Shown: one piece after another, positions 6,846 to 32,550 of the stretch
Layout: every line of letters starts with the position of its first letter
Numbering within the stretch: the stretch's first letter is position 1
Virus record (IMG/VR): IMGVR_UViG_3300025646_007434
Location: 1 to 43,925 of that record
Direction: 5' to 3' (one strand)
From: a virus
Length of the DNA stretch: 43,925 bases
The notes under the pieces: model-generated
Told to the model about the DNA's origin: nothing
Database searches by the model: none
What the model saw: only the letters and a program-made list of their open reading frames with translations
Made by a program: the position numbers and the translations under genes

Positions 6846-6848
6846 TTA

Positions 6849-7044: not shown

Positions 7045-7053
7045 ATAAATATT
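7045..7053 (-). promoter_or_regulatory. WATATKTAT promoter-like motif, baseplate operon
   Basis: On the coding strand the site reads AATATTTAT followed by AATAAA. It lies 28 nt upstream of the 55-aa gene and just after the tape measure stop codon. It is one of eleven sites of the same form at gene or operon heads. Confidence 0.55.
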
Positions 7054-7056
7054 GCT

Positions 7057-13513: not shown

Positions 13514-14710
13514 TTAAAAATCTAAAACTTTAGAAATAGAATTAAATACCATATCAGGAGTAATAGATTTAGTACATTCAAAATGACGAGGAGTGTTTTT
13601 GTGGTCAGGACACCATTCCCAATCACCAGGATTTAACCATTCTCTGTTAAAACACCCAGTACAAAATCCTTTAGGAGTAGATACACGTTCGCAATCCTCA
13701 AATTCTGTATGAGGATCACTAAAACCAGAAATCATTACTACAGGGGTTTCTAAAGCCCACGCCAACCAAGATAAACCACTACCTACTCCAATAAATGCTT
13801 CAGCATATTTAATCTGGTTCATTCTATATTGGATAGGTTGATTTCCAGTCTCGTCAATTACGTTTTGTAAAGTACCTCCTAATTTAGAATCATGCCAATC
13901 ATCTCCTAAAGGTTCATGCGTAATCATCATTACTTTATAACCTTTTTCATTTAGATTATCAATTATTTTTTGCCACCCTCCAGGATACATCCAGTATTTG
14001 GCGTGTGCTGAAGCGTGAGGGGCAATTACAACGTACTTTTCTTCAATAGGACGAAGCAAATCAGGATATTCTAATTTAGGTTTAATTTCCTTATATTCTA
14101 AACCTAAAATATCAGTTGCAGTTTGTTGAAGAGAAAAAGGTTTAAAATCTCTAGGAACGTGATTTAAATCTGGGGTATGGTCTTCATTATAATACCAACC
14201 AATACCATATTTAGCGTATAAGTTATTTACCTCACTACCCGGAGAAATAAATTCAAGTTCAGGGTAAAGATTTTGGAACCATTCATTTTTAAAAGTTGAA
14301 ACTACGACTTCACAATCCCATTTCTTTTTAAATTCTAAAGCATAAGGAAACCAAGCTAAAGTATCTCCGATAGCTGCCGAATCTATATGAATGTAAACTC
14401 GTTGATTTTTAGGATTATATTTATGTTCAAAAACCAATTCATTTGTAGATAAGTCATAAACTTGAATATGCCATCTTACAAAATAACGAACATTAGTTCG
14501 AGTCCACATATTGTTTTGTATAATGGCGTTATGGATAACGTTTCCAGAATCCATATCAGTCATTATAACTCTATAATCTTTCTTTTGATTACCTAATACT
14601 TCTAAAAAAGCCCCTTGAATAAAATTTACATTGTAACCATTTTGGGGTTCTTTTACAGAAAGACCCAATTTTGTTAAAGTATTGTATTCGTGAATTAGTT
14701 CCTGTTTCAT
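13514..14710 (-). CDS. BAHT/TibC-type protein O-heptosyltransferase homologue
   Basis: This 398-residue GT-B enzyme resembles autotransporter O-heptosyltransferases (family GT9-like, TibC/AAH class). After an N-terminal beta domain (about 27-97) comes VYIHIDSAAIGDTLAWFPYA (105-124), the Rossmann start with the conserved GDTLAWFPY. Next are PHASAHAKYW (231-240) and the donor-side segment FIGVGSGLSWLAWAL. At the end, C350, C353, C367 and C379 form the four-Cys pattern GFCTGCF...WCPDH...FEC that binds iron in TibC. Known members transfer heptose to Ser in repetitive strand-loop-strand surface proteins. Here the enzyme is the last gene of a four-gene operon next to huge Ser/Thr-Gly repeat fibres, which are its plausible substrates (inferred). 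It overlaps the upstream gene by 4 nt. The donor sugar is unknown. Confidence 0.85.
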   Translation of the reverse strand: MKQELIHEYNTLTKLGLSVKEPQNGYNVNFIQGAFLEVLGNQKKDYRVIMTDMDSGNVIHNAIIQNNMWTRTNVRYFVRWHIQVYDLSTNELVFEHKYNPKNQRVYIHIDSAAIGDTLAWFPYALEFKKKWDCEVVVSTFKNEWFQNLYPELEFISPGSEVNNLYAKYGIGWYYNEDHTPDLNHVPRDFKPFSLQQTATDILGLEYKEIKPKLEYPDLLRPIEEKYVVIAPHASAHAKYWMYPGGWQKIIDNLNEKGYKVMMITHEPLGDDWHDSKLGGTLQNVIDETGNQPIQYRMNQIKYAEAFIGVGSGLSWLAWALETPVVMISGFSDPHTEFEDCERVSTPKGFCTGCFNREWLNPGDWEWCPDHKNTPRHFECTKSITPDMVFNSISKVLDF

Positions 14711-15660
14711 AACACTTTTTTGTAAATTTCCATTAATTCAATAGTTCTATTATACCAACTATAATTTTTTCCAGTTTGGATAGCAGCTGATGTATAATCA
14801 TCCCATCTATTTAAGATATCATCAATGCCTTCACTCATTCTAAACACATTTCGAGGGGCTCTCCACATTCCTAAAAAATCAGTTTCCATTTCAATCCACC
14901 CAACAATAGGTAATCCACAAGCTGCTGCTTCTAACAATGTAAGGTTAGGGTGTCCTGCTTCCAACTCTGAAGGGTGGAGGAATATATCGTGTTCGTGATA
15001 GATTCTGCGTAAGGTTTTATTATCAGGTTCCCAAACAATTTTCAATTTAGAATAATTAAATGCCCAGAGATTTTCATTAAACCAATTTTCATTATTTCTA
15101 GGACCTACTATAGTAATAGGTAAACTTCTCCCCATAGCTAAACCAATCCCGTAAGCAAAACCTTTTCGGTCGTGGCCATTTTTACCCCCCATTCCGTTAT
15201 TAGCTAACATCAATAATTTAGGTTCAGTAGGTTTTGGTTTATTTTTAATTAGAGGGTAAAATTCGTTATTATTAACCCCATGAGCGAAATATAAACATTT
15301 AGGGTGGTTAAAATATTCTACTAACCATTTAGCGGGCATTAAAGAAACTAAAGAACCATCAATAGCTTCTAAATTTTCTTTGTAGGTATGAGAGTCTTTT
15401 CCATAGTACCAAACATGGTGATCATGAATTTGATAAATGTAAGGAATACCTCTATTTTTTAATTCAATAGCTAAGTTAGCAACATGACAATGTACTATAT
15501 CATATTCACCTGGGTTGATATGTCCTGCTAATTTGTGGGTTGATTGGTGACCTAAGGCACGTTGATTGGTTTCAAATTCCCAAATAATTTTTTCAATAGC
15601 CCCCCAGTTTTTAGGAGGAATATCTAAACCGCAAGCGGGATCTACATGGCATATTTTCAT
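14707..15660 (-). CDS. Glycosyltransferase, GT4-like (GT-B fold)
   Basis: This 317-residue protein begins MKICHVDPACGLDIPPKNWG, the N-terminal strand and Gly loop of GT-B enzymes. It has YDIVHCHVANLAIELKNRGI as the second Rossmann part and the C-terminal donor-binding region HDIFLHPSELEAGHPNLTLL. The E-x7-E signature of family GT4 follows (E...LLEAAACGLPIVG). It is shorter than most GT4 members, with a reduced linker, but both lobes are present. No membrane segment is visible, so it acts in the cytoplasm. It is coupled by 4-nt overlaps to the FkbM methyltransferase upstream and the heptosyltransferase-like gene downstream. Extending a sugar placed by the downstream enzyme is the natural guess; donor and acceptor are unknown. 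Confidence 0.85.
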   Translation of the reverse strand: MKICHVDPACGLDIPPKNWGAIEKIIWEFETNQRALGHQSTHKLAGHINPGEYDIVHCHVANLAIELKNRGIPYIYQIHDHHVWYYGKDSHTYKENLEAIDGSLVSLMPAKWLVEYFNHPKCLYFAHGVNNNEFYPLIKNKPKPTEPKLLMLANNGMGGKNGHDRKGFAYGIGLAMGRSLPITIVGPRNNENWFNENLWAFNYSKLKIVWEPDNKTLRRIYHEHDIFLHPSELEAGHPNLTLLEAAACGLPIVGWIEMETDFLGMWRAPRNVFRMSEGIDDILNRWDDYTSAAIQTGKNYSWYNRTIELMEIYKKVL

Positions 15661-16259
15661 AAACTTTTATTTTTAGCGTATATCATTCCTAAGTTATAAT
15701 CTTTGTGTATGTGTTCAAAGTTAGTTGCAAAATTATTTTTGCTAAACATTTCTAGTATTTCAAATACTTTATAGTAATTTTCGTAAATATCATGAACTTC
15801 AATAGCAAATTGGTCTATTTTTTTAATATCTTCAGAAGAAGCATTTAATAATAAAGGATATTCCCAATATTCGATATCAACTTTACAAAAATTTACTCTT
15901 CCTAAATTAAACTTATCAAAAATAGTAGGAAAATTATAGTGACCATATTCAAATCTATCACTAATAAAACCTTTTACTTTAGTAACATTATAATCATTAC
16001 GACAATTTAACGAAAGACAATCAAAATAATGGTCTTGAGCTTCAAAAGCATAAACATGATGGGCACCCTTACTTAAAGCATATTTAGTAAAAGCTCCTAC
16101 ATTAGCTCCAAAATCAAGTACAATATCCCCTGGGTGGATTTGGATACCATAACGATCGTATTCATTATCTTCCCATATTTCTTTTTTTACATTACGTAAC
16201 CAATCAGCATCTACATCTGAAGGGAAATATAAGCCATCAATTGATTCAAAATTAGTCAT
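15657..16259 (-). CDS. FkbM-family SAM-dependent methyltransferase
   Basis: This 200-residue protein has the FkbM layout. GDIVLDFGANVGAFTKYAL is the SAM-binding motif I (DxGANxG), followed by HHVYAFEAQ with the acidic residue that binds the ribose. RVNFCKVDIEYWEYPLL matches the family's late KxDIExxE motif, and FAIEVHD is the next strand. FkbM enzymes O-methylate sugar or polyketide hydroxyls, so in this operon it probably caps a glycan on a phage protein (inferred). Its start overlaps the fusion gene upstream by 8 nt, and its end overlaps the GT4 gene by 4 nt. The protein is slightly shorter than the usual 220-280 aa. Confidence 0.88.
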   Translation of the reverse strand: MTNFESIDGLYFPSDVDADWLRNVKKEIWEDNEYDRYGIQIHPGDIVLDFGANVGAFTKYALSKGAHHVYAFEAQDHYFDCLSLNCRNDYNVTKVKGFISDRFEYGHYNFPTIFDKFNLGRVNFCKVDIEYWEYPLLLNASSEDIKKIDQFAIEVHDIYENYYKVFEILEMFSKNNFATNFEHIHKDYNLGMIYAKNKSL

Positions 16260-18972
16260 TTACAAAAATTAAAGGATTATCAGTTCTACCATCTTTTATT
16301 GCTTGTTCTACAATACTAAATCCTGGAAGATGTTTAGTATAAATTTTTTCAGCTGTACCTACTTTTAATTTAGCTACATTACATACCCATAAATCAATAG
16401 CATCCCAAGGAGTTGATTCTAATAAAAATTGAATTTTAGGAATAAATTCTTTATTAATTAAATATGATTGAGCCGGGATAAATGGAGTTACATCTGTATA
16501 AACATCTTCAATTTTAGGACCATTTAAATTTCTATCTTGCCAAGGATTTCCAAAACCTATTATATCTTGAAATTGTTCTTTAGAAATTCGACTAAAACGT
16601 TTTAAATCTTCATACAATTCTTCGTAATTAGAATCAATAATTACATCACCCTCAAAAATTAAAATGTAATCATAATCTTTATTATCCTCGGCCATAATAG
16701 CATTCTTGTGGGCAAGATAACAACCATAGTGTCCCGGAGCAAGTTTATAGTAACCAGGTCTATCCTGAACTACTTCGGGACGAGCACAAGTATCAATAGG
16801 AGGTAAATCTTTCCAAATAACATTTACTCTCTGTTCATAAACAATACCTGTTTTATTACAAAAATCCTTAATACTTTCTATAGAACGAATTTCTTTAGGA
16901 TTAATATCTGGTTCTGTAACCAGATGCATTGCTTTAATTTTCAATTTATCTAAAGAGATTGGTTGAGGAGATTCTCCATACCATTCAAACATTCCATTTA
17001 ATGAAAAATTATTATTTCTGTATTGAGAATCTACAACAATTTCTTTAGTTTCTAAATAAGCATTAGTATCTAAATCATAAATGTCCCATTTAACTTTAAA
17101 TATATCTGAAGATGAGTATGGAACTAAATCTTTTCCACTAAATTTGCTTACTACTTTATAGTCTTCTTGCTTAACAACTTGACCATTTTTTTCTAAAGTA
17201 TATTTAATTAAACGACTATCGTTACTATTAGAAATTTGAACAAATGGAGCAAAGTAATTTGGGATGTTTGTAGGTAATACTGTAAAATATTCTACTCGTG
17301 AATAATCTTTATGAGTAAAAGTTTTACTACATTCAGTTTCAAAAACTTCTTTGGGTTCCCAATGTATGTTAGAAATATTTTTAAACCCATGATACATTAG
17401 ATTTTCTAAGCCATTAGATTCGGCACCCCATAAACTCATTAAATCATCATATTGGTTTGCAGTATCAATTTTAGGTTTAGATAAAAATAGTTCAGGACGA
17501 ATTCCTAAAAACCATGTTGTAATTTGTTTACCTTCTAATGCTTCATTTTCTCCAAAAAAAGCATTTTTAGTATTTAAAATATTACTAATTTTATCAACAT
17601 AAGAAGAATCTTTTAAAATATAGTCATAATTTAAAAAATAAACTTTTTGAATTCCTAATCCCTGTGCTAAAGCTGCTCCATTATAATAGTTAGTATAACA
17701 AGTAGGCCCATGGTATACATCATTATCTTCACCACTTAAAATTACATGAGCTTTAAATTCTGGGGTGCTAACCCAAGAATTAGCATAAAATGTATGTTTT
17801 GTTAAGATATTATTGTTATCATTAATTGAATAATCTACAATATCATCTAATTCTTTTGGAATAGGAATATGTGAGGTTAAAATAACTTTGCGGCCTGTTG
17901 CTTTAACAGCCTGGATACACTCTTTAGTAGTATCGATTATTGCCTTAGTAATAGGATAAGTTGAAATAATAAATGCTTCATCTTTAATATCGTTAACAAT
18001 ATTTTTAGATTCAACTAATCCTAAAGTAGATTTAATTAATTCAGCATTTTTATTTTTATTATCAAAATCTAAATAATTTACATTACTAAATTGATTAAAA
18101 TAATCTAAGTATACTGGAAGATTGTAAATTAAAAGGTTCATGTTCCATGAAATAGATTCACGGATTACTAAAGGCATAGTTTCTTTATCAGTATTTGAAC
18201 CACGTGATGTAAATAAAAACAAATCCATAGCCTTGTAAAAGTTATCTACATCTTTACGTTCATTCCACCAGGTAACATTTGATGGCTTATCGGCCATTAG
18301 TGGTTCCCAATAATCTCTAAAATTATCTGCTTGATTTCCTACACTATGAAATTCAACATCAGGCAGCATTCGGGCATATTCAAAAAATTCTTTTTGATTT
18401 TTACGTGGTGTGAACAGACCAACGTGTAAAACATGCTTTTTATTTGGGTTTAATCCTAAAGCACGTAATGCCTCTTCACGATTAGGACGTTCTTTATATT
18501 CAATAGGATAATAAACTACTTTTTTAGGAACATTGATGTCTTTATATTGTTGAACTTGCCACTCAGATACAAAAAGAAATTTATCAGGAAAAAAAGATTT
18601 ACGAGAAGTATCGTATGAAGAATCATGAGAAGTTTCTACAATAAAATAAGGACGATCAGTCCTGTAAATCTCTTTGGCGATTTCAAAATCCATAAAATAT
18701 TCAGGTATTTCCTCTAAATGGATAATATCCGGCTGAATACTGTTAATTATATGAATTATTTCTGTTTTGTCTTCTCCTAAAACAAAAAATCTATCAGAAG
18801 GTATAAGTTTTTGTAAACGTTCTTTTTGAACTACAAGAACTCCTCCGGTTAAATCATGCCACTCTATAAGATAAATTTCAAATTCATCTTTAATGAGTTC
18901 GATTTTTTTAGTCAAATATTGAGGTAATCCTCCTGTTGATAAGTGAGGAGCAATACAAAGTAATTTTTTCAT
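16252..18972 (-). CDS. Multidomain glycosyltransferase: GT4-like + unknown + beta domain + GT25-like
   Basis: This 906-residue protein joins several units. Residues 1-330 form a GT4-like GT-B enzyme (CIAPHLSTGGLPQYL at the start; HVGLFTPRKNQKEFFEYARM; E-x7-E in KETMPLVIRESISW). Residues about 335-570 form a second alpha/beta domain that begins FIISTYPITKAIIDTTKECI, perhaps an additional GT-A-like unit. Residues about 575-645 are a beta domain with DIFKVKWDIYDLDTNAYLE, which resembles the N-terminal domain of the BAHT-like protein (YFVRWHIQVYDLSTNELVF). Residues 679-905 look like a GT25/LPS-type glycosyltransferase (GCYLAHKNAIMAEDNKDYDY, then ILIFEGD in place of the usual EDD). It heads the glycosylation operon with a distinct upstream motif (18987-19011). 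The multistep layout suggests glycan building on one scaffold. The boundaries are approximate. Confidence 0.8.
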   Translation of the reverse strand: MKKLLCIAPHLSTGGLPQYLTKKIELIKDEFEIYLIEWHDLTGGVLVVQKERLQKLIPSDRFFVLGEDKTEIIHIINSIQPDIIHLEEIPEYFMDFEIAKEIYRTDRPYFIVETSHDSSYDTSRKSFFPDKFLFVSEWQVQQYKDINVPKKVVYYPIEYKERPNREEALRALGLNPNKKHVLHVGLFTPRKNQKEFFEYARMLPDVEFHSVGNQADNFRDYWEPLMADKPSNVTWWNERKDVDNFYKAMDLFLFTSRGSNTDKETMPLVIRESISWNMNLLIYNLPVYLDYFNQFSNVNYLDFDNKNKNAELIKSTLGLVESKNIVNDIKDEAFIISTYPITKAIIDTTKECIQAVKATGRKVILTSHIPIPKELDDIVDYSINDNNNILTKHTFYANSWVSTPEFKAHVILSGEDNDVYHGPTCYTNYYNGAALAQGLGIQKVYFLNYDYILKDSSYVDKISNILNTKNAFFGENEALEGKQITTWFLGIRPELFLSKPKIDTANQYDDLMSLWGAESNGLENLMYHGFKNISNIHWEPKEVFETECSKTFTHKDYSRVEYFTVLPTNIPNYFAPFVQISNSNDSRLIKYTLEKNGQVVKQEDYKVVSKFSGKDLVPYSSSDIFKVKWDIYDLDTNAYLETKEIVVDSQYRNNNFSLNGMFEWYGESPQPISLDKLKIKAMHLVTEPDINPKEIRSIESIKDFCNKTGIVYEQRVNVIWKDLPPIDTCARPEVVQDRPGYYKLAPGHYGCYLAHKNAIMAEDNKDYDYILIFEGDVIIDSNYEELYEDLKRFSRISKEQFQDIIGFGNPWQDRNLNGPKIEDVYTDVTPFIPAQSYLINKEFIPKIQFLLESTPWDAIDLWVCNVAKLKVGTAEKIYTKHLPGFSIVEQAIKDGRTDNPLIFVND

Positions 18973-18986
18973 AGACTATTTTAAAA

Positions 18987-19011
18987 CTATAACTATAATA
19001 TAATAACTTTT
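18987..19011 (-). promoter_or_regulatory. Candidate promoter/leader motif of the glycosylation operon
   Basis: The coding strand reads AAAAGTTATTATATTATAG followed by TTATAG, ending 14 nt before the operon's start codon. It closely matches the sequence upstream of gp32 (309-331) and lacks the WATATKTAT form used by structural genes. Function is inferred from this shared sequence and position. Confidence 0.4.
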
Positions 19012-19034
19012 TGTTAAACATCCAAATTATTTAA

Positions 19035-22000
19035 TTAAGGTTGGTACCAAGCAGGAACATAAAAATCAATACCAGTAATATTAAATACTAACCAACCTGC
19101 TGCTGCTAACCCAGTATTGTCAGGAACTTCAGGTTCAAGGAATCCATACTCACCTGGGTTATTTCGAACTTCTGCGATAGTTGGACAACATGAAGTGCCA
19201 TTAGTACCTGATACTCCAGATCTACCTGCAGTTCCTGCTGTACCACTTGTACTAGATCTACCTGAGGTACCTGCTGAGCCAGTAGAACCTGAACTACCTG
19301 AAGGACCTGATAAAGCATTTATACCACTAGTACCTGTAGAACCACTAGTTCCTGAAGTACCTGAAGTACCTCCTCTACCAGCTGTACCTGAAGTACCTGC
19401 TCTACCTGAAGTACCTGATGAACCTGACCGTCCTGAAGTAGAACCTGAGGAACCATTTGTACCTGACCTACCTGAAGTGCCTGAAGAACCGGCTTTACCA
19501 GCAGTACCATTTGAACCAGAAGTACCTGAAGTAGTACCCGAAGAACCTGATGTTCCGTTTCTACCAGATGTTCCACTAGTTCCCGCCCGACCCGAAGTTC
19601 CTGAAGAGCCTGCTTTACCCGAAGTACCATTTGAACCCGAAGTACCTGAGGTAGTACCTGAGGAACCTGATGTTCCATTTCTACCTGAGGTGCCAGAAGT
19701 ACCTGCTCTACCTGAAGTTCCATTTGAACCAGAAGTACCTGAAGTAGTACCTGAAGAACCAGAAGTACCATTTCGACCAGAGGTACCTGAAGTACCAGAT
19801 TTACCTGATGTACCTGCTGAACCTGAAGTAGCAGATTCTCCTGCTAAACCAGATATACCTGAAGTACCTGTTGAACCAGAAGAACCTGAAGTTCCATTAG
19901 TCCCTGAACGTCCAGCAGTACCTGAAGTGCCAGCACGTCCTGAAGTTCCATTTGAACCAGAAGTACCTGAGGTAGTACCTGAGGAACCTGATGTTCCATT
20001 TCTACCGGATGTACCCGAAGTGCCAGCACGTCCTGAGGTTCCGTTTGAGCCACTTGTACCTGAGGTAGTACCCGAAGAACCTGATGTTCCATTTCTACCT
20101 GAAGTACCTGAAGTGCCAGACCGACCAGAGGTACCTGCTGAACCTGATGAACCTGAAGTACCTGAAGTAGCAGATTCTCCTGATAGACCTGCTATACCTG
20201 AAGTACCTGTTGAACCAGAAGAACCTGAAGTGCCACTAGTTCCTGAACGTCCAGCTGTACCTGAGGTACCTGCTCTACCTGAAGTTCCGTTTGAGCCACT
20301 TGTACCAGATGTAGAACCAGAAGAACCTGAAGTTCCGGCTCGTCCTGCTGTACCTGAAGAACCTGCTTTACCTGAAGTTCCATTTGAGCCAGAAGTACCT
20401 GAGGTAGTACCTGAGGAACCAGAAGTACCATTTCGACCAGAAGTACCCGAAGTGCCAGACCGACCAGAGGTACCTGCTGAACCTGCTGAACCTGATGAAC
20501 CTGAAGTACCTGAAGTAGCAGATTCTCCTGATAGACCTGCTATACCTGAAGTACCTGTTGAACCAGATGTACCTGAAGAACCCGAAGTTCCTGAGCGTCC
20601 AGCTGTACCTGAGGTACCTGCTCTACCTGAGGTTCCTTGTGAACCTGAGCTACCTGATGAACCTGAAGTACCTGCTTTACCTGAGGTGCCGGATGAACCT
20701 GAAGAACCACTTGTACCTGAAGATCCCCTTTTACCAGCAGTACCAGCACTACCTGAAGTACCTGAGGTACCTGAAGCATATGGAACTTCAAAGAAAATAG
20801 TTTGAGTGCAAGAATGCACATTACAAACATCTGTAGTAGGACCACTACAGTTACCATTATAAGTAAAATCGCCATATAAATAAGTAACTTCAACTACAAT
20901 ATCAACTACTGAAAAGTAAATATTATCAACTGTGTAGTAGGCACTTCCACCTCCAACTCCAGATACATTTTCATTACTAACTCTTAGTTTATTTCCTATT
21001 GGGTAGTTTAATATAGAAGATGTAACATTTCCAAAACAACTTTCTTGGTGTAAATAAAATTCAGTAATAGCACTATAAGAGGAAACATCTGTTGAAGCTG
21101 TAGCAGCATTTGCTGGCATAGTTCCTGCACAATCTATAAGATTATAACAGTATCCTACATAATAACTTCCAAATCCACTTGTTCCTGCTGAACCAGAAGT
21201 ACCTGAACTACCTGCTAAACCTGAAGAACCGCTTGAGCCGCTAGCACCTGCTACACCTGAGATACCTGAGGTACCTGTTGAACCAGATGTACCTGAAGAA
21301 CCCGAAGTTCCTGAGCGTCCAGCTGTACCTGAGGTACCTGCTCTACCTGAGGTTCCTTGTGAACCTGAAGAACCTGAACTACCGGAGGTAGCAGATTCTC
21401 CTGATAAGCCTGCTATACCTGAAGTACCTGTACTTCCTGAAGTGCCAGATGAACCTGAGGTACCTGATGAACCTGCGGTACCTGAAGTGCCTGCTCTACC
21501 TGAAGTGCCATTAGCTCCATTTGAACCTGAACTACCTGTACTCCCTGAAGTACCTGAAGTAGCCGATTCTCCTGATAAACCTGCTATACCTGAGGTACCT
21601 GTTGAACCAGATGTACCTGAAGAACCCGAAGTTCCTGAACTTCCAGCTGTACCTGAAGTGCCATTTCTACCTGAAGTTCCTTGTGAACCTGAGCTACCTG
21701 AAGAACCTGAACTACCGGAGGTAGCAGATTCTCCTGATAAGCCTGCTATACCTGAGGTACCTGTTGAACCTGAAGTACCAGAAGAACCTGAAGTACCGGA
21801 TGAGCCAGCTGTACCTGAGGTACCTGCTCTACCTGAAGTTCCTTGTGAACCTGAGCTACCTGAAGAACCTGAACTACCGGAGGTAGCAGATTCTCCTGCT
21901 AGACCAGATATACCACTAGTACCTGTTGAACCTGAAGTACCGCTTGAACCCGCAGTACCCGATGAACCCGCGGTACCTGAAGTACCTGAGCGACCTGAAG

Positions 22001-22874: not shown

Positions 22875-22899
22875 TCAAGTGGTTATTCATCATTTATCG

Positions 22900-22908
22900 A
22901 TAAATATT
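22900..22908 (-). promoter_or_regulatory. WATATKTAT promoter-like motif, 1279-aa fibre gene
   Basis: The coding strand reads TAATATTTATCGATAAATG, with the motif 25 nt upstream of the start codon and immediately behind the terminator at 22909-22936. Confidence 0.6.
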
Positions 22909-22936
22909 AAAAAATAAAGGGGTATTCTACCCCTTT
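22909..22936 (-). terminator. Terminator after the 604-aa gene
   Basis: A 9-bp stem (AAAGGGGTA / TACCCCTTT) with a 3-nt loop is followed on the coding strand by ATTTTTTAATATTTAT. It closes the three-gene operon that starts with the giant fibre and runs straight into the next promoter-like motif. Confidence 0.85.
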
Positions 22937-22980
22937 TACATTATATAACATAAAATATAATTTTTACACTGCCAAATTTA

Positions 22981-24795
22981 TTAAGAAAAATATGTAGAGA
23001 AAAAATATGGGTCTCTATTTGAACCATTTAATTTGGTTGTGGCATATGCTAAACCATAATTACCAGCAGCCCCCCTAAATTGAACTGAAGGGAAAGTTAA
23101 ATCATGATTAAAATCATTAAAGAAAGGAGTTAGACCGGTAGCACTATCTAGTATAGTACTTCCAGCTACATAATTTAATCTAAGTACCATTTCAGCTTTA
23201 TCTCTAATAGTTACTGCGGGGGTTGGTGAAGAAGGATGATATAATGCTGTACTATAAGGAATTCTTAATACCTCTACAACAGCAGGTGTAACATCTGAGT
23301 TACTATGAGAGTAACTTAAAGCTACATAACAAATTTTAGTTGTATAATAATCAGTGGTGTTTATATTTGGAATAGTATTAACTGGTCTTTCATAAACATT
23401 TGTCATTCTTTGTAGACCAAAACTACCTTCATTACCTGGAGTGAAAGCTAAAGTAGGGGTAAAAGTAGCTCCTACTTGAGTGTAAGTATCAGTTGCTATA
23501 TCGTGTTCTACTACATATAAATTTAAGCATGTTGTACTTAAAGTACCAGCTACGTATCCTACTAAAAGCCAAACTTTACCTATCGATAAATCATCTTCAA
23601 GTATACAAGCTACGTCACGTCTCATATTATTACCACTACTTGCTATAGTTCTTTCTGTTCCTAAAGTTAAAGTAGTAGCAGTATGGGTTGTTCTTCTAAT
23701 ATATAAATTGCTATTGTAATTAGTACTTCTTGCTCCTGTGTAAACATTAAAATTATATAAGCTACTTCCTGAAACTGGTACTGCTGTTGCATAAGTACTA
23801 TAACGATTTAAGCTATGTAAAGTTTGTAAAGCAAACTGTGCCGTAATTGTATTAGCTATACGATCGTATTGAATAACATTAGCCCGCAGATTAGAATTTC
23901 CTCTAGATACTACAGACCAGGCTTTGTAATCAATCCCAAAATGAACCGTACAACAATCAACAGCATTGCTAGTGTGCATTGTTATGCTAGCTGATTGAGT
24001 TGGAGAAGCAGTAATACCTGTTGTAGTATCAACAACATGTACTTTATATCTAATTTGAGCTGTAGAAGCTGTAGAACGACCTCCAGTTAGGATAAACTTA
24101 TAAGTACCAAAATTTTTAATTAAAGAAGCTATAGAGCCCATATAAACAATCCCTAAAGAAGCCTCAGTAGCTGTAGTAACTATAGGAGCTGATGCATTAC
24201 CAGCACCATTGCCTAAATTCCACAATACAAAACCTATGTCTGTAGTAGTAGATCGTTCATAAACACCTACCCCATAAGCACTATCAGCCCAAAGCATTTT
24301 CCATCTTTGGGTAGCGGTATTAAAATAACCTGTATTTGAAGCAGGATAAGTAGAATGTTGTTTTACTTGCCCAAAAGGAGCTGTAATATTAGTATAAGTC
24401 CAGTTAGTTAATCCACTCATTCTTACATTTTTTCCTGTAGCACGAGTAGAATCATCGTTAAACTGATAATAAGTTGATTGGGTTGTAGGATATGTTTGGT
24501 TAGCTAAATAAAATCCTAACATTAAAGGGTTTGAGTTAGGATAAGTATTACCACTTATAGGGAAAGCAGCTAAAGTTCCAGTATCATATATACCTAATCT
24601 TGCAGCCCACCCATTTTGGCTTAAACCACCACTACCTGAAATAGCACTTGCGTTTAATAAACTTAAATTACTAGGGCTATAGGTAGTACCATTTCCTGAA
24701 AAGGTTTGTTCATAGTTAGACCATTGACCTGCGTCTTGAGCAAGCCTTAAATTTGTAAATGGTGGTAAACCCCAAGAAATTTTAGTACCAGGCAT
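22981..24795 (-). CDS. Unknown fibre-associated protein, beta-rich, possible adhesin or tip
   Basis: This 604-residue protein is rich in Thr, Ser, Asn, Ala and Tyr and poor in Lys and Glu. It has regular short strands with recurring hydrophobic/Tyr patterns, suggesting a beta-propeller or stacked beta fold. No signal peptide or membrane segment is seen. The N-terminus reads MPGTKISWGLPPFTNLRLAQ and the C-terminus DPYFFSTYFS. It is not a Gly-X-Y protein, although it is encoded in one operon with the giant fibre, 1 nt after the 155-aa gene. That suggests it binds a receptor, caps the fibre or decorates the same appendage. No family was recognised. Confidence 0.6.
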   Translation of the reverse strand: MPGTKISWGLPPFTNLRLAQDAGQWSNYEQTFSGNGTTYSPSNLSLLNASAISGSGGLSQNGWAARLGIYDTGTLAAFPISGNTYPNSNPLMLGFYLANQTYPTTQSTYYQFNDDSTRATGKNVRMSGLTNWTYTNITAPFGQVKQHSTYPASNTGYFNTATQRWKMLWADSAYGVGVYERSTTTDIGFVLWNLGNGAGNASAPIVTTATEASLGIVYMGSIASLIKNFGTYKFILTGGRSTASTAQIRYKVHVVDTTTGITASPTQSASITMHTSNAVDCCTVHFGIDYKAWSVVSRGNSNLRANVIQYDRIANTITAQFALQTLHSLNRYSTYATAVPVSGSSLYNFNVYTGARSTNYNSNLYIRRTTHTATTLTLGTERTIASSGNNMRRDVACILEDDLSIGKVWLLVGYVAGTLSTTCLNLYVVEHDIATDTYTQVGATFTPTLAFTPGNEGSFGLQRMTNVYERPVNTIPNINTTDYYTTKICYVALSYSHSNSDVTPAVVEVLRIPYSTALYHPSSPTPAVTIRDKAEMVLRLNYVAGSTILDSATGLTPFFNDFNHDLTFPSVQFRGAAGNYGLAYATTKLNGSNRDPYFFSTYFS

Positions 24796-24796
24796 A

Positions 24797-25264
24797 TTAT
24801 TCTTTTGGTATTACATCCGCAGGAACTTCGTTATAAACTAATTGAGAGGCCGCATTTTTAGTAATTATACATCCTAAAGTAGAATAATTACCATCAACTA
24901 TTTTACTAATAAGAGCATAAACTGCTGTAATTTCACTATTAGTAACAACATTGTTGTAAGTTACAATTTCACCACTAGTTTGTTTTGATAAGAGTAAAGC
25001 TCTAGCATCTTCAGAAAATTTATATTTTAAAGCTGAAGAATATTCATTATCAAAAGCTGGGTCAATGTTAGCGGTTTCTATTCCGTTTATAATAGCAACA
25101 TGACATAAAGCATAGATAGGGGTTGTTCTTTCTTCAGATATTTGAAGAAGAAAACCTAAACGTTTTTGAAAATAGTTTTCCCCAACCATAACATCTACCT
25201 CTTCTATAAGAGATAGAATTCCTTCTTTAGCTAAAATACTGTTTTTTAATTCTTGTAACGTCAT
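24797..25264 (-). CDS. Unknown small protein between the giant fibre and the 604-aa protein
   Basis: This 155-residue, mostly helical, acidic protein begins MTLQELKNSILAKEGILSLI and ends YNEVPADVIPKE. It has no membrane segment or motif that I recognise. It overlaps the end of the giant fibre gene by 4 nt and precedes the 604-aa gene by 1 nt, so its translation is coupled to both. Small helical proteins coded between fibre genes often help fibre folding or attachment; here this is inferred from position only. Confidence 0.55.
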   Translation of the reverse strand: MTLQELKNSILAKEGILSLIEEVDVMVGENYFQKRLGFLLQISEERTTPIYALCHVAIINGIETANIDPAFDNEYSSALKYKFSEDARALLLSKQTSGEIVTYNNVVTNSEITAVYALISKIVDGNYSTLGCIITKNAASQLVYNEVPADVIPKE

Positions 25265-28200
25265 GATATTTTATTTTTTAATTCATCTATTTGGTTTTGT
25301 AATTCTTTAACGGCTTCAATTAATAAAGCAGTTAATTTTTCATAATCTACAGTTTTAACTGTTACATTTTGAGTTCCATAATCACCCAATTGTAATGTTT
25401 TTTCTCTTACAATGTGAGGAATTACTCTTTCAATTTCTTGAGCGATTACTCCTAAATCATGTTGTCCTTTTCTAGATCCTGAGAGCCAATCATATTCTAC
25501 ACCTCGTAATTGAGTTACTTTTTCAAGTGCGTTTTCAATAGTAAATACATTATCCTTTAATCTTTCATCAGAAACTGTAGTTGAGTATGCAATTACGTCA
25601 CTATCTACGTGAAGGTCTCCGTCGGATTCTAAACGAGCTCTTTCTCCACCATTTACAAAGAATGATGTGTAAGAGTTATTTACCCACCGAATGTAATCTC
25701 CAGAATCTAAACCAACATACTCAATACCATCTCTTAAATCAGATTCAATGCTTAAAGTAACATCACCAATTAAAGAACCACCTCCATCTAATCCAGTACC
25801 TGGTATTACACTAACATAAGTACCAGCTGAACCCACATTACCTGATCTACCACTAGTACCGTTTGTACCTGAAGTACCAGTTCTACCTGAAGTACCTGAT
25901 GAGCCGTTTTGACCTGAAGCTGCGTTAGCACCATTTGAACCAGTAGTTCCATTTCGTCCTGAAGTACCTGAAGTACCAGTAAGTCCTGCTCTACCTGATG
26001 TACCACTTGAACCTGATGTACCACCCCGTCCTGAAGTACTTCCGTTTGAACCTGTTGTACCTGCTTTACCCGAAGTACCAGAAGTTTGAGTTAAACCAGA
26101 TCTACCAGCTGTACCAGATGAACCTGTTGTACCACTCCGTCCTGAAGTACCACTAGAACCTCCTGAGGTACCTGAAGTACCAGACCGACCAGAAGTACCA
26201 GAAGTTTGAGTTAAACCTGCTTTACCAGCTGTACCTGAAGAACCTGTTGTACCGCTCCGTCCTGAAGTACTTCCGTTTGAACCTGTTGTACCTGCTCTAC
26301 CAGAAGTACCTGAGGTATTGGTTAAACCTCCTCTACCAGCAGTACCGCTTGAACCTGTAGTACCACTCAGTCCTGAAGTACCTGAAGTTTGAGATGAACC
26401 TCCTCTACCAGCTGTACCACCATTTGAACCAGTTGTACCACTCCGTCCTGAAGTACCCGAAGTTTGAGTTGAACCTGCTTTACCGGCAGTACCTGAAGAG
26501 CCTGAGGTGCCACTCCGCCCGGAAGTACTTCCGTTTGAACCTGTTGTACCTGCTCTACCAGAAGTACCTGAGGTGTTGGTTAAACCAGATTTACCAGCTG
26601 TACCACTTGAACCTGTTGTACCGCTCCGTCCTGAGGTTCCGTTTGAACCTCCTGAAGTACCGCTTGTACCTGATTTACCTGAAGTGCCATTATTACCATT
26701 CCGCCCAGCAGTACCGCTTGAACCTGTAGTACCACTTACTCCAGATTTTCCTGAAGTGCCATTTGCACCATTTGCACCTGAAGTTCCATTAGAACCTCCT
26801 GAAGTACCTGAAGTACCAGACTGACCAGAAGTACCACTTGCACCATTTTTACCTGCAGTACCTCCTGAACCATTAGTTCCTGAAGTAGCACTAGCACCTG
26901 AAATTCCTGCGGCTCCAGATAAACCTGAAGAACCAGAAGAACCATTAGTACCTGAAACACCACTTGTTCCTGAAGTACCGTTAGCTCCAGACCGTCCTGC
27001 AGTACCTGCTGAACCTGTAGTTCCAGCTACTCCGGATTTACCTGAAGTGCCATTATTACCATTCTGTCCAGAAGTACCGCTTGAACCTGTAGTTCCTGAA
27101 ACACCGGATTTACCTGAAGTTCCGTTTGCACCGTTTGCACCAGAAGTTCCGTTTGAACCTCCTGAAGTACCGCTTGTACCTGATTTACCAGAGGTTCCAT
27201 TATTGCCATTCCGTCCTGCTGTACCGTTTGAACCTGTAGTTCCTGAAACACCGGATTTACCTGAAGTTCCGTTTGCACCGTTTGCACCAGAAGTTCCGTT
27301 TGAACCTCCTGAAGTGCCTGAAGTGCCATTCCGTCCTGAAGTACCATTAACCCCAGATTTACCAGCTGTACCACTTGAACCTGTAGTACCTGAAACTGCG
27401 CTGGTACCTGAAGTACCATTGGCTCCAGACCGTCCTGCAGTACCTGCTGAACCTGTTGTACCTGATAAACCTGATTTACCTGAAGTTCCGTTTGCGCCGT
27501 TTTGACCTGATGTTCCGTTTGAACCTGTAGTTCCCGAAGTACCTGATTTTCCTGAAGTACCACTTACACCGTTTGCACCAGAAGTTCCGTTTGAACCTCC
27601 TGAAGTACCTGAAGTACCTGATTTACCTGATGTACCATTGTTGCCATTTTGTCCGGCAGTACCGTTTGAGCCTGTAGTTCCTGAAACACCTGATTTACCA
27701 CTAGTACCATTAGCGCCATTTGCACCTGAGGTTCCATTTGAACCTCCTGAAGTACCTGAAGTACCAGACCGACCAGAAGTGCCATTTACTCCAGATTTAC
27801 CAGCTGTACCACTTGAACCTGTAGTACCACTTACAGCTGAAGTACCTGAAGTGCCGTTAACTCCACCCCGTCCTGCTGTACCATTTGAACCAGTTGTACC
27901 TGAAGTACCGTTTTTACCTGAAGTGCCGTTTGCACCTGATTGACCTGAAGTTCCGTTCGAACCTGTAGTTCCAGCTACTCCAGATTTTCCTGAGGTTCCA
28001 TTAACACCATTTTGGCCTGAGGTTCCATTTGAACCTGTAGTTCCTGAAGTTCCATTTTGTCCTGATGTTCCGTTAACTCCAGACCGTCCTGAAGTTCCAT
28101 TTGAACCTGTAGTACCACTTACAGCTGAAGTACCTGCAGTACCTGTCAAACCAGATTTACCAGCTGTACCTGCTGAGCCATTTGTGCCTGAAACTGCTGA

Positions 28201-31200
28201 AGTACCTGAAGTACCATTTGCACCTGATTTACCTGAAGTACCTGCTGAACCTGTAGTTGCAGAAACTCCTGAGGTACCTGCTGAACCATTTGTACCACTT
28301 ACAGCACTGGTACCCGAGGTACCATTAGCACCTGATTTACCTGAAGTACCTGCTGAACCTGTAGTTGCAGAAACTCCTGAAGTACCTGCTGAGCCATTTG
28401 TTCCTGAAATAGCACTAGTACCCGAGGTACCATTAGCACCTGATTTACCTGAAGTACCTGCTGAACCTGAAGTATTACTTAAACCAGATTGACCTGCAGT
28501 ACCATTATTTCCTGTAGTACCTGAAGAACCTTGAGTTCCAGAGGTAGATGATAATCCTGATTTACCAGCAGTACCGTTAGCACCTGTTGTACCTGAAGTA
28601 CCAGCCGAACCATTTGAACCAGAAGTTGAACTTAAACCTGAAGTACCTGCAGTACCTGTCAAACCAGATTTACCTGAAGTACCTGCTGAACCTGTAGTTG
28701 CAGAAACTCCTGAAGTACCTGCTGAGCCATTAGTTCCTGAAACTGCTGAAGTACCAGATGTACCATTTGCTCCAGATTTACCAGCTGTACCGTTTGAACC
28801 TGTAGTACCACTTACAGCTGCAGTACCTGATGAACCATTTGTACCTGAGACTGCTGAAGTACCTGAAGTGCCGTTTGCACCTGATTTACCTGAAGTACCT
28901 GCTGAGCCAGTTGTGCCTGAAATAGCACTAGTACCTGAAGTACCATCTGCACCTGAAATTCCGGCGGTACCTGTTGAGCCATTTGTACCTGAAACTGCTG
29001 AAGTACCCGAAGTACCATTTGCACCTGATTTACCAGCTGTGCCACTAGATCCGTTTGAACCTGAAGTTGCACTTAGACCTGAAGTACCTGCGGTACCTGT
29101 TAAACCAGATTTACCTGAAGTTCCTTGAGAACCAGAAGTTGCACTTAAACCTGAAGTACCGGCAGTGCCATTAGCTCCACTTACACCGGCTGAACCGTTA
29201 GTACCATTTGTACCAGAAATTGCTGAAGTACCTGAAGTGCCATCCGCACCTGAAATTCCAGCTGTACCGTTTGAACCATTAGTTCCTGAAATTGCTGAAG
29301 TACCTGAGGTGCCTGTTAAACCAGATTTGCCTGAAGTTCCTGCTGAACCATTTGTGCCACTTACAGCACTAGTACCTGAGGTGCCATTATTTCCTGATGT
29401 GCCATTTGAACCGTTTGTTCCAGAAGTTGCTGAAACTCCTGATGTTCCTGCTACACCATCTTGACCTGAACTACCGTTAGATCCCGTAGTACCCGATGTA
29501 GAAGATACACCGCTAGTACCTGCGGCACCATTAGCACCTGATGAGCCATTAGACCCTGTAGTACCGCTTGTAGCGCTTACACCACTTGTGCCTGCAACGC
29601 CATTTTGGCCTAAACTACCATTTGAACCTGTAGTTCCTGAAGTTGAAGATACACCACTTGTACCCCCAATACCATTAGCTCCGGCACTACCATTTGTACC
29701 AGTTGAACCTGAAGTTCCTGATACACCTGAAGTTCTTGAAGCACCATCTGCACCTACTGAACCTGAAGTACCAGTTGAACCTGAGGTACCACTTGTACCT
29801 GAAGTTTCACTATTATTTGATTGTCCTGCTACTCCAGCTGAACCTGTAGTTCCTGATGAACCAGAAGTACCTGAAGTTGCTGATAAATTAGATTCACCTG
29901 CATCTCCGGCTGAACCTGTAGTTCCTGAAGAACCACTTGTACCTGAAGTTGCACTATCAGCTGATTGACCCGCTATACCTTGAGAACCAGTAGTACCTGA
30001 AGAGCCAGAAGTACCTGAAGTTTCACTTATATTACTTTCTCCAGCAATTCCTACTGAACCAGAAGTACCTGAAGAGCCAGAAGTACCTGAAGTTGCTGAT
30101 AAATTAGATTCACCTGCATCTCCGGCTGAACCTGTTGTACCACTTGTACCACTTGTACCTGAGGTTTGTGAAGCACCATCTGCTCCTACAGAACCTGAAG
30201 TACCTGTAGAACCACTAGTTCCTGATTGGCCTGAAGTTTGAGAAACACCATCGGCACCTGCTGAACCTGTAGTTCCTGATGAACCAGAAGTACCTGAAGT
30301 TGCACTTAAATTACTTTCACCTGCGATTCCAATTGAACCTGAAGTACCAGATGAACCTGAAGTACCTGAAGTTTCACTTATATTACTTTCTCCAGCAACC
30401 CCCGTTGAACCTGAAGTACCAGTTGAACCACTTGTACCTGAAGTTGCGGATTCGCCTGAAGTACCTGCTTCACCTGAGGTACCTACACTACCTGAAGTAC
30501 CAGATGAACCCGAAGTATTACTTTCACCAGAAGTTCCAGCATTTCCACTTGAACCTACAGTACCGGTTGAACCTGAAGTACCGCTTGTGGCTGAATCTCC
30601 AGAAGTGCCTGCTTCACCGCTTGAACCTACAGTACCTGTACTGCCTGAGGTACCACTTGTAGCTGAATCTCCAGAAGTGCCTGCTTCACCTGAAGTACCC
30701 ACACTACCTGAAGTGCCAGATGAACCTGAAGTATTACTTTCACCACTAGTACCGGCCTCACCGCTTGAACCTACAGTACCAGTTGAACCTGAGGTACCAG
30801 AAGTAGCAGAATCACCTGAAGTTCCAGCTTCACCTGTAGTTCCAAATGAACCTGAAGTACCTGAAGTACCGCTTGTATTACTTTCACCACTAGTACCTGC
30901 TTCACCACTTGAACCTACAGTACCAGTTGAACCACTTGTACCTGAAGTTGCTGATTCGCCTGAAGTACCGGCTTCACCTGTAGTTCCAAATGAACCTGAA
31001 GTACCTGAAGTACCACTTGTAGCTGAATCTCCGGAAGTGCCTGCTTCACCGCTTGAACCTACAGTACCAGTTGAACCTGAGGTACCCGATGTACCTGAAG
31101 TACCACTTGTTAAAGATTCGCCTGAGGTTCCTGCTGTACCAGTTGAACCACTTGTTCCTGAAGTACCCGAAGAACCTGCTGTATTTGATTCACCGCTTGA

Positions 31201-32550
31201 GCCAAAGGTACCTGTTAAACCTGAGGTACCTGAAGTACCAGAAGAACCTGAAGTATTAGATTCGCCTGAAGAACCAAAAGTACCAGTACTACCTGATGTG
31301 CCTGATGTACCTGAAGAACCTGCTGTATTTGATTCACCGCTTGAGCCAAAGGTACCTGTAGAACCTGAAGTTCCAGAAGTGCCCGAAGAACCAGCTGTGT
31401 TTGATTCACCACTTGAGCCAAAAGTACCAGTACTACCTGAAGTGCCGGATGTGCCTGAAGTGCCACTTGTTAAAGATTCGCCTGAGGTTCCTGCTGTACC
31501 AGTTGAACCACTTGTTCCACTAGTTCCTGAAGAGCCGGCTGTGTTTGATTCACCTGAAGAACCAGAAGTACCTGTAGATCCTGAAGTACCTGATGTGCCC
31601 GAAGAACCCGCGGTATTTGATTCACCTGAGGAACCAAAAGTACCAGTTGAACCACTTGTGCCAGAAGTACCAGATGTACCAGCAGTATTTGAAGCTCCTG
31701 AAGTACCTGATGAACCTGCAGAACCTCCACCTCCTGAAACACCACTTGAACCTGCAGTACCTGAAGTATTTGAACCACCTGAAGTACCTGCGCTGCCTGT
31801 AGTACCCGAAGTTCCACTAGTTCCTGCCGAACCTGAAGTTCCAGAAGTGCCTGATGTACCCGAAGAACCAGATGTTCCTGAAGTTCCCGATGAACCTGAT
31901 GTTCCTGCTGAACCTGAAGTACCACTTGTTCCGCTAGTTCCTGAAGAACCGGCTGTGTTTGATTCACCACTTGAGCCAAAAGTACCAGTACTACCCGAAG
32001 TACCAGAAGTACCAGAAGTACCATTTGAACCTGAAGTACCAGAAGTTCCTGATGAACCCGCAGTACCTGAACTACTGGATTCACCTGAAGTTTGGTTTTC
32101 ACCTGAACTACCAGAAGTACCAGAAGAACCAGATGAACCAGAAGTACCTGAACTTCCAGCTACAGCTGATAAACCTGAAGAACCTCCCGTACCTGATGAA
32201 CCTGAAGCGCCACCACTTGTACCTGAGGTACCTCTAGTACCTGAAATACCACTTGTACCTGAAGTACCATTAGATCCAGATTCACCTGAAGTGGCATGAG
32301 CACCAGAGCTACCATTTGAACCTGAAGAGCCTGAACTACCAGAAGTACCAGCAGTGCCCGCACTACCTGAACTTCCACTTGTTCCTGAAGATCCACTACT
32401 ATAAGAAAGACCTGATGAGCCAGTAGTTCCAGAAGAACCAGCAGAGCCAGCAGAACCTGATGAACCTGATACTCCGGATTCACCACTAATTGCGTCTTGT
32501 CCTTGGAAGGATGCTATGGATACTTGGTCTAAAAATCTTACGTTGGCCAT
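25261..32550 (-). CDS. Giant collagen-like Gly-X-Ser fibre with C-terminal S74 intramolecular chaperone
   Basis: This 2429-residue protein has a short N-terminal anchor (MANVRFLDQVSIASFQGQDA), then about 2220 residues of Gly-X-Y triplets, mostly GTS, GSS, GTA and GSN. The C-terminus is non-repetitive: a beta part (VSVIPGTGLDGGGSLIGDV ... GGERARLESDGDLHVDSD), then an S74/endosialidase-chaperone domain. Its hallmarks are VSDERLKDN (Ser2327, the usual self-cleavage Ser-Asp pair), GVEYDWLSG, DLGVIAQEIERVIPHIV and VDYEKLTALLIEAVKELQNQ, with a terminal coiled coil. In this family the domain drives trimerisation and is then cut off. Triplets contain almost no Pro, and single Gly-to-Ala/Asn changes recur without loss of register. 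As a triple helix (about 0.29 nm per residue) the shaft could reach roughly 600 nm. It is the first gene of its operon, with a promoter-like motif 18 nt upstream. Confidence 0.9.
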   Translation of the reverse strand: MANVRFLDQVSIASFQGQDAISGESGVSGSSGSAGSAGSSGTTGSSGLSYSSGSSGTSGSSGSAGTAGTSGSSGSSGSNGSSGAHATSGESGSNGTSGTSGISGTRGTSGTSGGASGSSGTGGSSGLSAVAGSSGTSGSSGSSGTSGSSGENQTSGESSSSGTAGSSGTSGTSGSNGTSGTSGTSGSTGTFGSSGESNTAGSSGTSGTSGTSGSAGTSGSSGTSGTSGSSGTSGTSGTSGSAGTSGTSGTTGSAGTSGGSNTSGTAGSSGVSGGGGSAGSSGTSGASNTAGTSGTSGTSGSTGTFGSSGESNTAGSSGTSGTSGSTGTSGSSGESNTAGSSGTSGTSGSTGTAGTSGESLTSGTSGTSGTSGSTGTFGSSGESNTAGSSGTSGTSGSTGTFGSSGESNTAGSSGTSGTSGSTGTFGSSGESNTSGSSGTSGTSGLTGTFGSSGESNTAGSSGTSGTSGSTGTAGTSGESLTSGTSGTSGTSGSTGTVGSSGEAGTSGDSATSGTSGTSGSFGTTGEAGTSGESATSGTSGSTGTVGSSGEAGTSGESNTSGTSGTSGSFGTTGEAGTSGDSATSGTSGSTGTVGSSGEAGTSGESNTSGSSGTSGSVGTSGEAGTSGDSATSGTSGSTGTVGSSGEAGTSGDSATSGTSGSTGTVGSSGNAGTSGESNTSGSSGTSGSVGTSGEAGTSGESATSGTSGSTGTSGSTGVAGESNISETSGTSGSSGTSGSIGIAGESNLSATSGTSGSSGTTGSAGADGVSQTSGQSGTSGSTGTSGSVGADGASQTSGTSGTSGTTGSAGDAGESNLSATSGTSGSSGTSGSVGIAGESNISETSGTSGSSGTTGSQGIAGQSADSATSGTSGSSGTTGSAGDAGESNLSATSGTSGSSGTTGSAGVAGQSNNSETSGTSGTSGSTGTSGSVGADGASRTSGVSGTSGSTGTNGSAGANGIGGTSGVSSTSGTTGSNGSLGQNGVAGTSGVSATSGTTGSNGSSGANGAAGTSGVSSTSGTTGSNGSSGQDGVAGTSGVSATSGTNGSNGTSGNNGTSGTSAVSGTNGSAGTSGKSGLTGTSGTSAISGTNGSNGTAGISGADGTSGTSAISGTNGTNGSAGVSGANGTAGTSGLSATSGSQGTSGKSGLTGTAGTSGLSATSGSNGSSGTAGKSGANGTSGTSAVSGTNGSTGTAGISGADGTSGTSAISGTTGSAGTSGKSGANGTSGTSAVSGTNGSSGTAAVSGTTGSNGTAGKSGANGTSGTSAVSGTNGSAGTSGVSATTGSAGTSGKSGLTGTAGTSGLSSTSGSNGSAGTSGTTGANGTAGKSGLSSTSGTQGSSGTTGNNGTAGQSGLSNTSGSAGTSGKSGANGTSGTSAISGTNGSAGTSGVSATTGSAGTSGKSGANGTSGTSAVSGTNGSAGTSGVSATTGSAGTSGKSGANGTSGTSAVSGTNGSAGTAGKSGLTGTAGTSAVSGTTGSNGTSGRSGVNGTSGQNGTSGTTGSNGTSGQNGVNGTSGKSGVAGTTGSNGTSGQSGANGTSGKNGTSGTTGSNGTAGRGGVNGTSGTSAVSGTTGSSGTAGKSGVNGTSGRSGTSGTSGGSNGTSGANGANGTSGKSGVSGTTGSNGTAGQNGNNGTSGKSGTSGTSGGSNGTSGANGVSGTSGKSGTSGTTGSNGTSGQNGANGTSGKSGLSGTTGSAGTAGRSGANGTSGTSAVSGTTGSSGTAGKSGVNGTSGRNGTSGTSGGSNGTSGANGANGTSGKSGVSGTTGSNGTAGRNGNNGTSGKSGTSGTSGGSNGTSGANGANGTSGKSGVSGTTGSSGTSGQNGNNGTSGKSGVAGTTGSAGTAGRSGANGTSGTSGVSGTNGSSGSSGLSGAAGISGASATSGTNGSGGTAGKNGASGTSGQSGTSGTSGGSNGTSGANGANGTSGKSGVSGTTGSSGTAGRNGNNGTSGKSGTSGTSGGSNGTSGRSGTTGSSGTAGKSGLTNTSGTSGRAGTTGSNGSTSGRSGTSGSSGTAGKAGSTQTSGTSGRSGTTGSNGGTAGRGGSSQTSGTSGLSGTTGSSGTAGRGGLTNTSGTSGRAGTTGSNGSTSGRSGTTGSSGTAGKAGLTQTSGTSGRSGTSGTSGGSSGTSGRSGTTGSSGTAGRSGLTQTSGTSGKAGTTGSNGSTSGRGGTSGSSGTSGRAGLTGTSGTSGRNGTTGSNGANAASGQNGSSGTSGRTGTSGTNGTSGRSGNVGSAGTYVSVIPGTGLDGGGSLIGDVTLSIESDLRDGIEYVGLDSGDYIRWVNNSYTSFFVNGGERARLESDGDLHVDSDVIAYSTTVSDERLKDNVFTIENALEKVTQLRGVEYDWLSGSRKGQHDLGVIAQEIERVIPHIVREKTLQLGDYGTQNVTVKTVDYEKLTALLIEAVKELQNQIDELKNKIS
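25821..32490 (-). repeat. About 6.7 kb of Gly-X-Ser triplet repeats
   Basis: Degenerate 9-nt repeats (coding-strand theme ACTTCAGGT and variants) form higher-order units. A 24-residue unit with landmark GSTGTFGSSGESNTAGSS dominates the 5' part. Units with GTSAVSGTNGSAGTSG dominate the middle, and GTSGGSNGTSGANGANGTSG the 3' part. The regional change in unit type suggests stepwise local duplication. Confidence 0.85.

Follow-up and report, generated by a model that had tools for sequence, protein, structure and literature searches.

The question raised by the viral contig analysed here is why a T4-like phage should keep two giant collagen-like fibre genes, rich in serine and almost free of proline, next to a run of glycosyltransferase (GT) genes. 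The contig (IMG/VR record IMGVR_UViG_3300025646_007434, called the window from here on) is 43,925 bp long and spans a T4-like structural module. A sequence-only reading had proposed that the phage glycosylates its own collagen-like fibres, and this proposal is now supported by the gene content of the locus, the membership of one of its enzymes in the BAHT family, the conserved gene order and the co-occurrence of that enzyme with Ser/Thr-rich, Pro-free fibres. Taken together, these genomic data make it likely that T4-like phages glycosylate their own giant Ser-rich, Pro-free collagen-like fibres.

A TibC-like transferase beside proline-free fibres

All genes at issue lie on the minus strand, at the positions already assigned to them, in the interval between orf312 (32581..33516), the conserved left-hand neighbour of the cassette, and the gene of a gp18-like tail sheath (11634..13355), its conserved right-hand neighbour. 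This interval holds two collagen-like fibre genes, two open reading frames (ORFs) without an assigned family, and the genes of a GT4-GT25 fusion, an FkbM methyltransferase, a GT4 enzyme and a TibC-like transferase. The last of these (398 aa, 13514..14710), described earlier as a BAHT/TibC-type transferase, proved to be a clear member of the BAHT family: it scored 327.2 bits against the curated NCBIfam equivalog model TIGR04414 (hepto_Aah_TibC; cut-off 200) and had a PDB match to TibC at E=3e-58. Its AlphaFold model, with a predicted local distance difference test score (pLDDT) of 84, gave template modelling (TM) scores of 0.75-0.81 to TibC (4RAP/4RB4), a fold with an N-terminal beta-barrel, and of 0.4-0.6 to GT9 heptosyltransferases of lipopolysaccharide (LPS) such as WaaC. 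Asp116, equivalent to the catalytic Asp110 of TibC, and Cys350, Cys353, Cys367 and Cys379, which align with the iron finger Cys of TibC (339, 342, 358 and 370), are invariant across 15 phage homologues. TibC itself uses ADP-heptose as donor, modifies Ser but not Thr in repetitive autotransporters and requires its iron finger (PMC4358343); a dodecameric assembly is a further mark of the family. The window enzyme thus belongs to a family that is protein O-glycosylating, and sequence and model predict it to be a Ser O-heptosyltransferase. PHROGs has no family for it. No autotransporter substrate was identified among the window ORFs, and the neighbour of the enzyme is a collagen-like fibre.

The two fibres comprise 2,429 aa (fibre 1, 25261..32550) and 1,279 aa (fibre 2, 19035..22874), with repeat domains at residues 23-2245 and 68-1228, respectively. 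When only runs of at least five uninterrupted Gly-X-Y triplets are counted, they hold 639 and 320 triplets, that is, 959 triplets or 2,877 residues; the figure of about 3,260 residues given earlier is reached if short interruptions are included. Ser or Thr is present in 85.8% of the triplets of fibre 1 and 86.6% of those of fibre 2, and the X and Y positions hold no Pro in the former and a single one in the latter, so that the earlier description (Ser or Thr in nearly every triplet, Pro in almost none) is accurate. The term Gly-X-Ser fits the majority of the repeats (Ser at Y in 56% and 66%), but not all of them as a strict pattern. The Pfam Collagen model (PF01391) gave 75 matches in the window (best E=7.7e-11), far beyond chance. 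The Ser codons are TCN as well as AGY, which indicates that the repeats are not one DNA repeat passively copied and argues for selection on the protein.

In fibre 1 a non-Gly triplet (ATS, NTS, NTA and similar) breaks the repeats roughly once per 24 residues, and the protein ends in a stretch (25261..25986) that comprises the last triplets and a tail-fibre tip with a Peptidase_S74 intramolecular chaperone (E=1.4e-15). This trimeric S74 tip is found on fibre 1 only; fibre 2 carries a non-collagenous island of 132 residues, near residues 570-701, and a short C-terminal domain. The near lack of Pro, the very high Ser/Thr content and the frequent interruptions of fibre 1 would also suit a non-helical rod, whose Gly-Thr-Ser repeats would carry glycans as flexible, mucin-like chains or form polyglycine-II bundles, with glycosylation but no stabilisation of a helix. 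Against this stand the Pfam Collagen matches, the S74 chaperone, characteristic of trimeric fibres, the fact that 50 of the 74 interruptions of fibre 1 swap exactly one triplet and keep the register, and the Gly-Pro collagens that sister phages have at the same place. Such a rod is the less favoured architecture, though a serious minority possibility; as it is compatible with the fibre being the target, its probability does not compete with that of fibre glycosylation.

The fibres had been placed immediately upstream of the GT operon. This is right for fibre 2, which abuts the operon with a gap of 62 bp, but fibre 1 is set apart by a 604-aa ORF (22981..24795), which has no family match and a sole counterpart among the compared loci in the near-identical locus L009, and by a 155-aa ORF without a confident family (24797..25264). 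The first enzyme of the operon (906 aa, 16252..18972) consists of a GT4 domain, a middle domain and a C-terminal GT25-like domain. The GT4 part of the proposed GT4 and GT25-like fusion was confirmed, while the GT25 domain reached 23.7 bits, just below the Pfam PF01755 cut-off of 24; two relatives pass it, with 60.6 bits (L157) and 30.1 bits (L104). The best PDB folds for the fusion were human COLGALT1 and LH3, with TM scores of at most 0.25 from a low-confidence model (pLDDT 62). The COLGALT1 match is taken only as a lead, since the model is of low confidence and the PDB may lack other GT25 folds. The operon continues with an FkbM-family methyltransferase (200 aa, 15657..16259; PF05050, TIGR01444) and a GT4 glycosyltransferase (317 aa, 14707..15660).

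The structural genes elsewhere in the window encode a prohead protease, the major capsid protein, PhoH, a head-tail adaptor, the tail sheath, the tail tube, a baseplate hub and a wedge protein. The nearest phage records to the capsid protein are Flavobacterium phage immuto (57%) and Microcystis phage Mel-JY01 (51%). The PhoH-like protein (35263-36003) has a C-terminus, GSTGTSGKSTR, that is similar to the fibre repeats.

Co-occurrence of BAHT and fibres in related phages

The cassette was compared with loci from IMG/VR, where 198 of the 199 pattern matches listed encode a relative and the best 80 were taken for comparison. Wherever a contig shows it, the order is kept: fibre, GT4 (with or without GT25), FkbM when present, GT4, BAHT, gp18 and gp19. 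The fibres beside BAHT have a Ser/Thr content of 50-88% and Pro near 0, and relatives without BAHT (L117, L163 and L098) have Gly-Ile-Gln or Gly-Pro fibres. In L117 (32-6586), Pro, Ser and Thr are scarce in two mainly Gly-Ile-Gln fibres, and no gene for a modifying enzyme was seen nearby. In some BAHT contigs the nearest fibre bears Pro or is absent, and all of those that were extended upstream show a Ser/Thr-rich, Pro-free giant of up to 4,335 aa. L049, L055, L067, L103 and L104, with a Gly-Tyr-Gln or Gly-Pro fibre nearest to BAHT, were dismissed as exceptions in this way, as was L059, an apparent case of BAHT without a fibre whose contig carries a fibre of 3,185 aa.

A second comparison was blind to BAHT. 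Contigs of at least 20 kb were sampled by a Gly-Thr-Ser coding pattern or by a Gly-Pro-Ile/Gln pattern; the former were retained only with a true Gly-X-Y ORF in the local locus, and the latter were picked by length alone. BAHT was found in 18 of 44 Gly-Thr-Ser contigs and in 2 of 44 Gly-Pro contigs (Fisher p=3.4e-5, relatedness ignored), in line with the co-occurrence that the sequence-only reading had proposed to look for. Both BAHT-bearing Gly-Pro controls also carry a Ser/Thr-rich fibre and were not retained as counter-examples. At 80 kb or more, the figures were 11 of 14 and 1 of 9. The surveyed contigs are fragments, and much of the apparent absence of BAHT from the other 26 Gly-Thr-Ser contigs may be due to fragmentation, since only 3 of 14 lack it at 80 kb or more. 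Related phages with the same fibres were not found to lack glycosyltransferases consistently.

In a control search anchored on the sheath gene, 37 intervals from orf312 or the fibre to gp18 were scored: 6 have fibre and BAHT, 3 the fibre only, 1 BAHT only and 27 neither (p=2e-4). Many of the intervals with neither show the site without the cassette, with 60-500 bp between orf312 and gp18. Relatives without the fibre are usually without BAHT, and this control ruled out that collagen fibres generally come without BAHT. The pairing also recurs in varied arrangements, namely on the same strand, convergently, between two fibres, or with GT4-BAHT or GT4-FkbM-BAHT fusions. The isolated Microcystis phage Mel-JY01 (L089, PP395634.1) has one of the latter at 4750-8430, annotated only as "methyltransferase FkbM", and a collagen-like ORF at bases 2-3052, at the start of the record, that is missing as such from the annotation. 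As side observations, the GT-BAHT fusion protein of L435 (1187-5311) contains intein-splicing and LAGLIDADG matches, and L427 (8107-10887) has two BAHT-like ORFs (298 and 418 aa) with an FkbM-like gene between them. Bacterial BAHTs with collagen neighbours were also considered: the four hits in bacterial genome contigs all come from metagenome-assembled genomes (MAGs), three with a Gly-X-Y ORF and two with a tail-sheath gene, and resemble binned phage. L447 and L448, which have BAHT cassettes with a fibre, were binned with MAGs of Winogradskyella and Flavobacteriales, and this hints weakly at the hosts.

These data bear on two other explanations of the GT genes. The first is that they remodel the LPS or capsule of the host, to block superinfection or to free receptors, and lie near the fibres only since both concern host recognition. 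GTs near the T4-like tail-fibre clusters of pelagimyophages have been read in this way (PMC7029224), GT4, GT25 and FkbM domains are frequent in polysaccharide synthesis, and L168 has in addition a C-methyltransferase and a Polysacc_synt_2 sugar-nucleotide enzyme. Yet the enzyme that is conserved best comes from a family of protein O-heptosyltransferases and is nearer in fold to TibC than to the LPS heptosyltransferases, BAHT follows one class of fibre composition, and the genes are placed in the late tail module beside gp18, all of which makes remodelling of the host surface improbable. The second is that the sugars go to a different protein of the virion, namely the sheath, the tube, the capsid or the 604-aa protein, and that linkage accounts for the association with the fibre. 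The cassette does adjoin gp18 and gp19, and virion glycosylation by phages is established for other proteins (Freeman 2023, as cited in PMC12619734). However, relatives retain gp18 and gp19 while losing BAHT along with the fibre, and the association holds when cluster and fibre gene are transcribed convergently or when no sheath gene is detected nearby; we give this second explanation very little weight. The glycosylation of the fibres themselves is the reading that we follow below.

Prolyl-hydroxylase-like oxygenases and proline-containing fibres

A second pairing was found in sister phages whose fibres contain Pro (Gly-Pro-Ile, Gly-Pro-Gln or Gly-Tyr-Gln). These phages usually encode a 2-oxoglutarate (2OG)-Fe(II) oxygenase of 200 aa, from the prolyl-4-hydroxylase-like family PF13640, and its gene sits between the fibre and GT genes. 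Such oxygenase genes lie beside Pro-containing fibres at L049 4453-5043, L067 6502-7092, L103 4306-4896, L104 5239-5847, L141 3902-4513, L157 4510-5091 and L199 9321-9902. After dereplication, 8 loci have a Pro fibre with the oxygenase and 2 a Pro fibre without it, while 0 Pro-free loci have the oxygenase and 16 lack it; the resulting p=2.9e-5 is descriptive, as the Pro threshold was chosen after the data had been seen. The two exceptions are L163, where a DUF6445 gene that by eye looks like a 2OG oxygenase occupies that place, and L098, where the fibre is located elsewhere. In the window, no PF13640 oxygenase gene lies between the fibres and gp18, every ORF there being accounted for. Downstream of a Ser/Thr-rich fibre in which Pro makes up 9%, L157 also encodes (5096-7525) an 809-aa protein that fuses GT4, GT25, OGFOD2-like and 2OG-Fe(II) oxygenase domains. 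The fibre Pro of the sister phages is mostly at X; animal hydroxyproline is at Y.

The sister-phage oxygenases may hydroxylate the Pro-containing fibres, and the pairing supports fibre modification as a common theme. The best reading of the two pairings is a phage kit for the post-translational modification of collagen-like fibres, by O-glycosylation when they are Ser-rich and probably by hydroxylation when they contain Pro. In its widest form, a proposal for and against which we see the balance as even, widespread aquatic T4-like phages, probably infecting Flavobacteria, and some larger relatives would carry a modular collagen-maturation kit, in which giant Gly-Thr-Ser fibres without Pro are served by a TibC-type serine O-glycosylation module and Gly-Pro fibres by a prolyl-hydroxylase-like one. 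These would represent two chemical ways to stabilise triple helices, swapped with the matching fibre gene.

Proposed mechanism and known systems

Several points weigh against fibre glycosylation as proposed here. The Fisher tests treat related phages as independent, and the gp18 tree gives few independent contrasts: BAHT and fibre change together 3:0 (p=0.25), and the contrasts for oxygenase and Pro are also few, 5:0 (p=0.06), though their direction agrees. Moreover, the phages sampled by the Gly-Thr-Ser pattern may infect other host groups than those sampled by the Gly-Pro pattern. Individual loci depart from the pattern: L157 combines its Ser/Thr-rich fibre and GT4-GT25-oxygenase fusion with no BAHT within 11 kb, L162 has BAHT and no fibre in the interval, and no Ser/Thr-rich fibre lies within 10-20 kb of the BAHT of the large phages L424, L427-L429, L432, L435, L436, L451 and L452. 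Only 1 of 20 contigs has a clear gene for donor synthesis (HldE domain II). Synthesis of the sugar donor by the phage was rejected on this basis as mostly absent, and the donor would come from the host or be a different one. Finally, fibre modification is predicted here from the genes, and the triple helix of the Gly-X-Ser repeats is likewise a prediction.

In the mechanism that we propose, the cassette would encode both the giant fibres, as collagen-like trimers of the tail or baseplate, and their modifying enzymes, active in the infected cell. The TibC/BAHT enzyme would put the first sugar on fibre Ser, mostly at the outward-facing Y of Gly-X-Ser, from a donor (ADP-heptose in known family members) probably supplied here by the host. 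The GT4 and GT4-GT25 enzymes would lengthen this first sugar to a short glycan, and the FkbM enzyme would O-methylate it. Dense sugars would probably stabilise and hydrate the triple helix, because the repeats are almost without proline or hydroxyproline, and may also shield the fibre against proteases or serve in receptor binding.

If this is true, the serine O-heptosyltransferase family gains a new class of substrate, collagen-like fibres, and a new setting, phages, and a role is given to a set of glycosyltransferases common in phages, which annotations usually assign to the modification of DNA or LPS. It would also answer how proline-free collagen could be stable in bacteria, and E. coli might then be used to produce glycosylated collagens that contain no hydroxyproline. 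A natural experiment is provided by related phages, whose modifying genes differ between Gly-Pro, Gly-Ile-Gln and Gly-Thr-Ser fibres, and the isolated phage Mel-JY01 makes the proposal directly testable. The sequence-only reading knew of no phage system of this composition that had been described, and no report of phage BAHTs or of a BAHT-collagen pairing was found in the searchable literature (subscription papers not covered), which suggests that the pairing of BAHT with a collagen-like fibre is new for phages.

The closest known systems are TibC and Aah with their autotransporters TibA and AIDA-I (PMC4358343), which share the enzyme family, the fold, the catalytic Asp and the four-Cys iron finger, and whose known members act on Ser of highly repetitive surface proteins. 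Here, in contrast, the enzyme is phage-encoded, it stands beside a collagen-like tail fibre instead of the beta-helix of an autotransporter, and it has GT4, GT25 and FkbM companions, often as fusions. Mimivirus, with the collagen glycosylation by R699 (PMC9546862) and a noted collagen hydroxylation (PMC8968730), is likewise a virus with collagen-like proteins and collagen-modifying enzymes, and a GT25/COLGALT-like fold may be common to it and the GT fusion of the window; however, it is a eukaryotic giant virus with sugars on hydroxylysine, whereas here a bacteriophage encodes an enzyme of the Ser O-heptosyltransferase family. Mycobacteriophages provide a case of phage GTs that modify their own virion, although the targets are others, the capsid and the tail tube, and collagen-like fibres are not reported in the account available (Freeman 2023, as cited in PMC12619734). 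BclA and BclA1 (PMC8968730) are glycosylated prokaryotic collagen-like proteins whose glycans are thought to improve the hydration of the helix, but they belong to the spores of Bacillus and Clostridioides, their repeats contain Pro and Thr, and no BAHT is reported there. Finally, the viral prolyl 4-hydroxylases of PBCV-1 and marine viruses, whose use has been called cryptic, have been proposed to hydroxylate collagen-like proteins (PMC9301287), and the sister phages place such a gene beside Pro-containing fibres, whereas the window itself, with its Pro-free fibres, has none.
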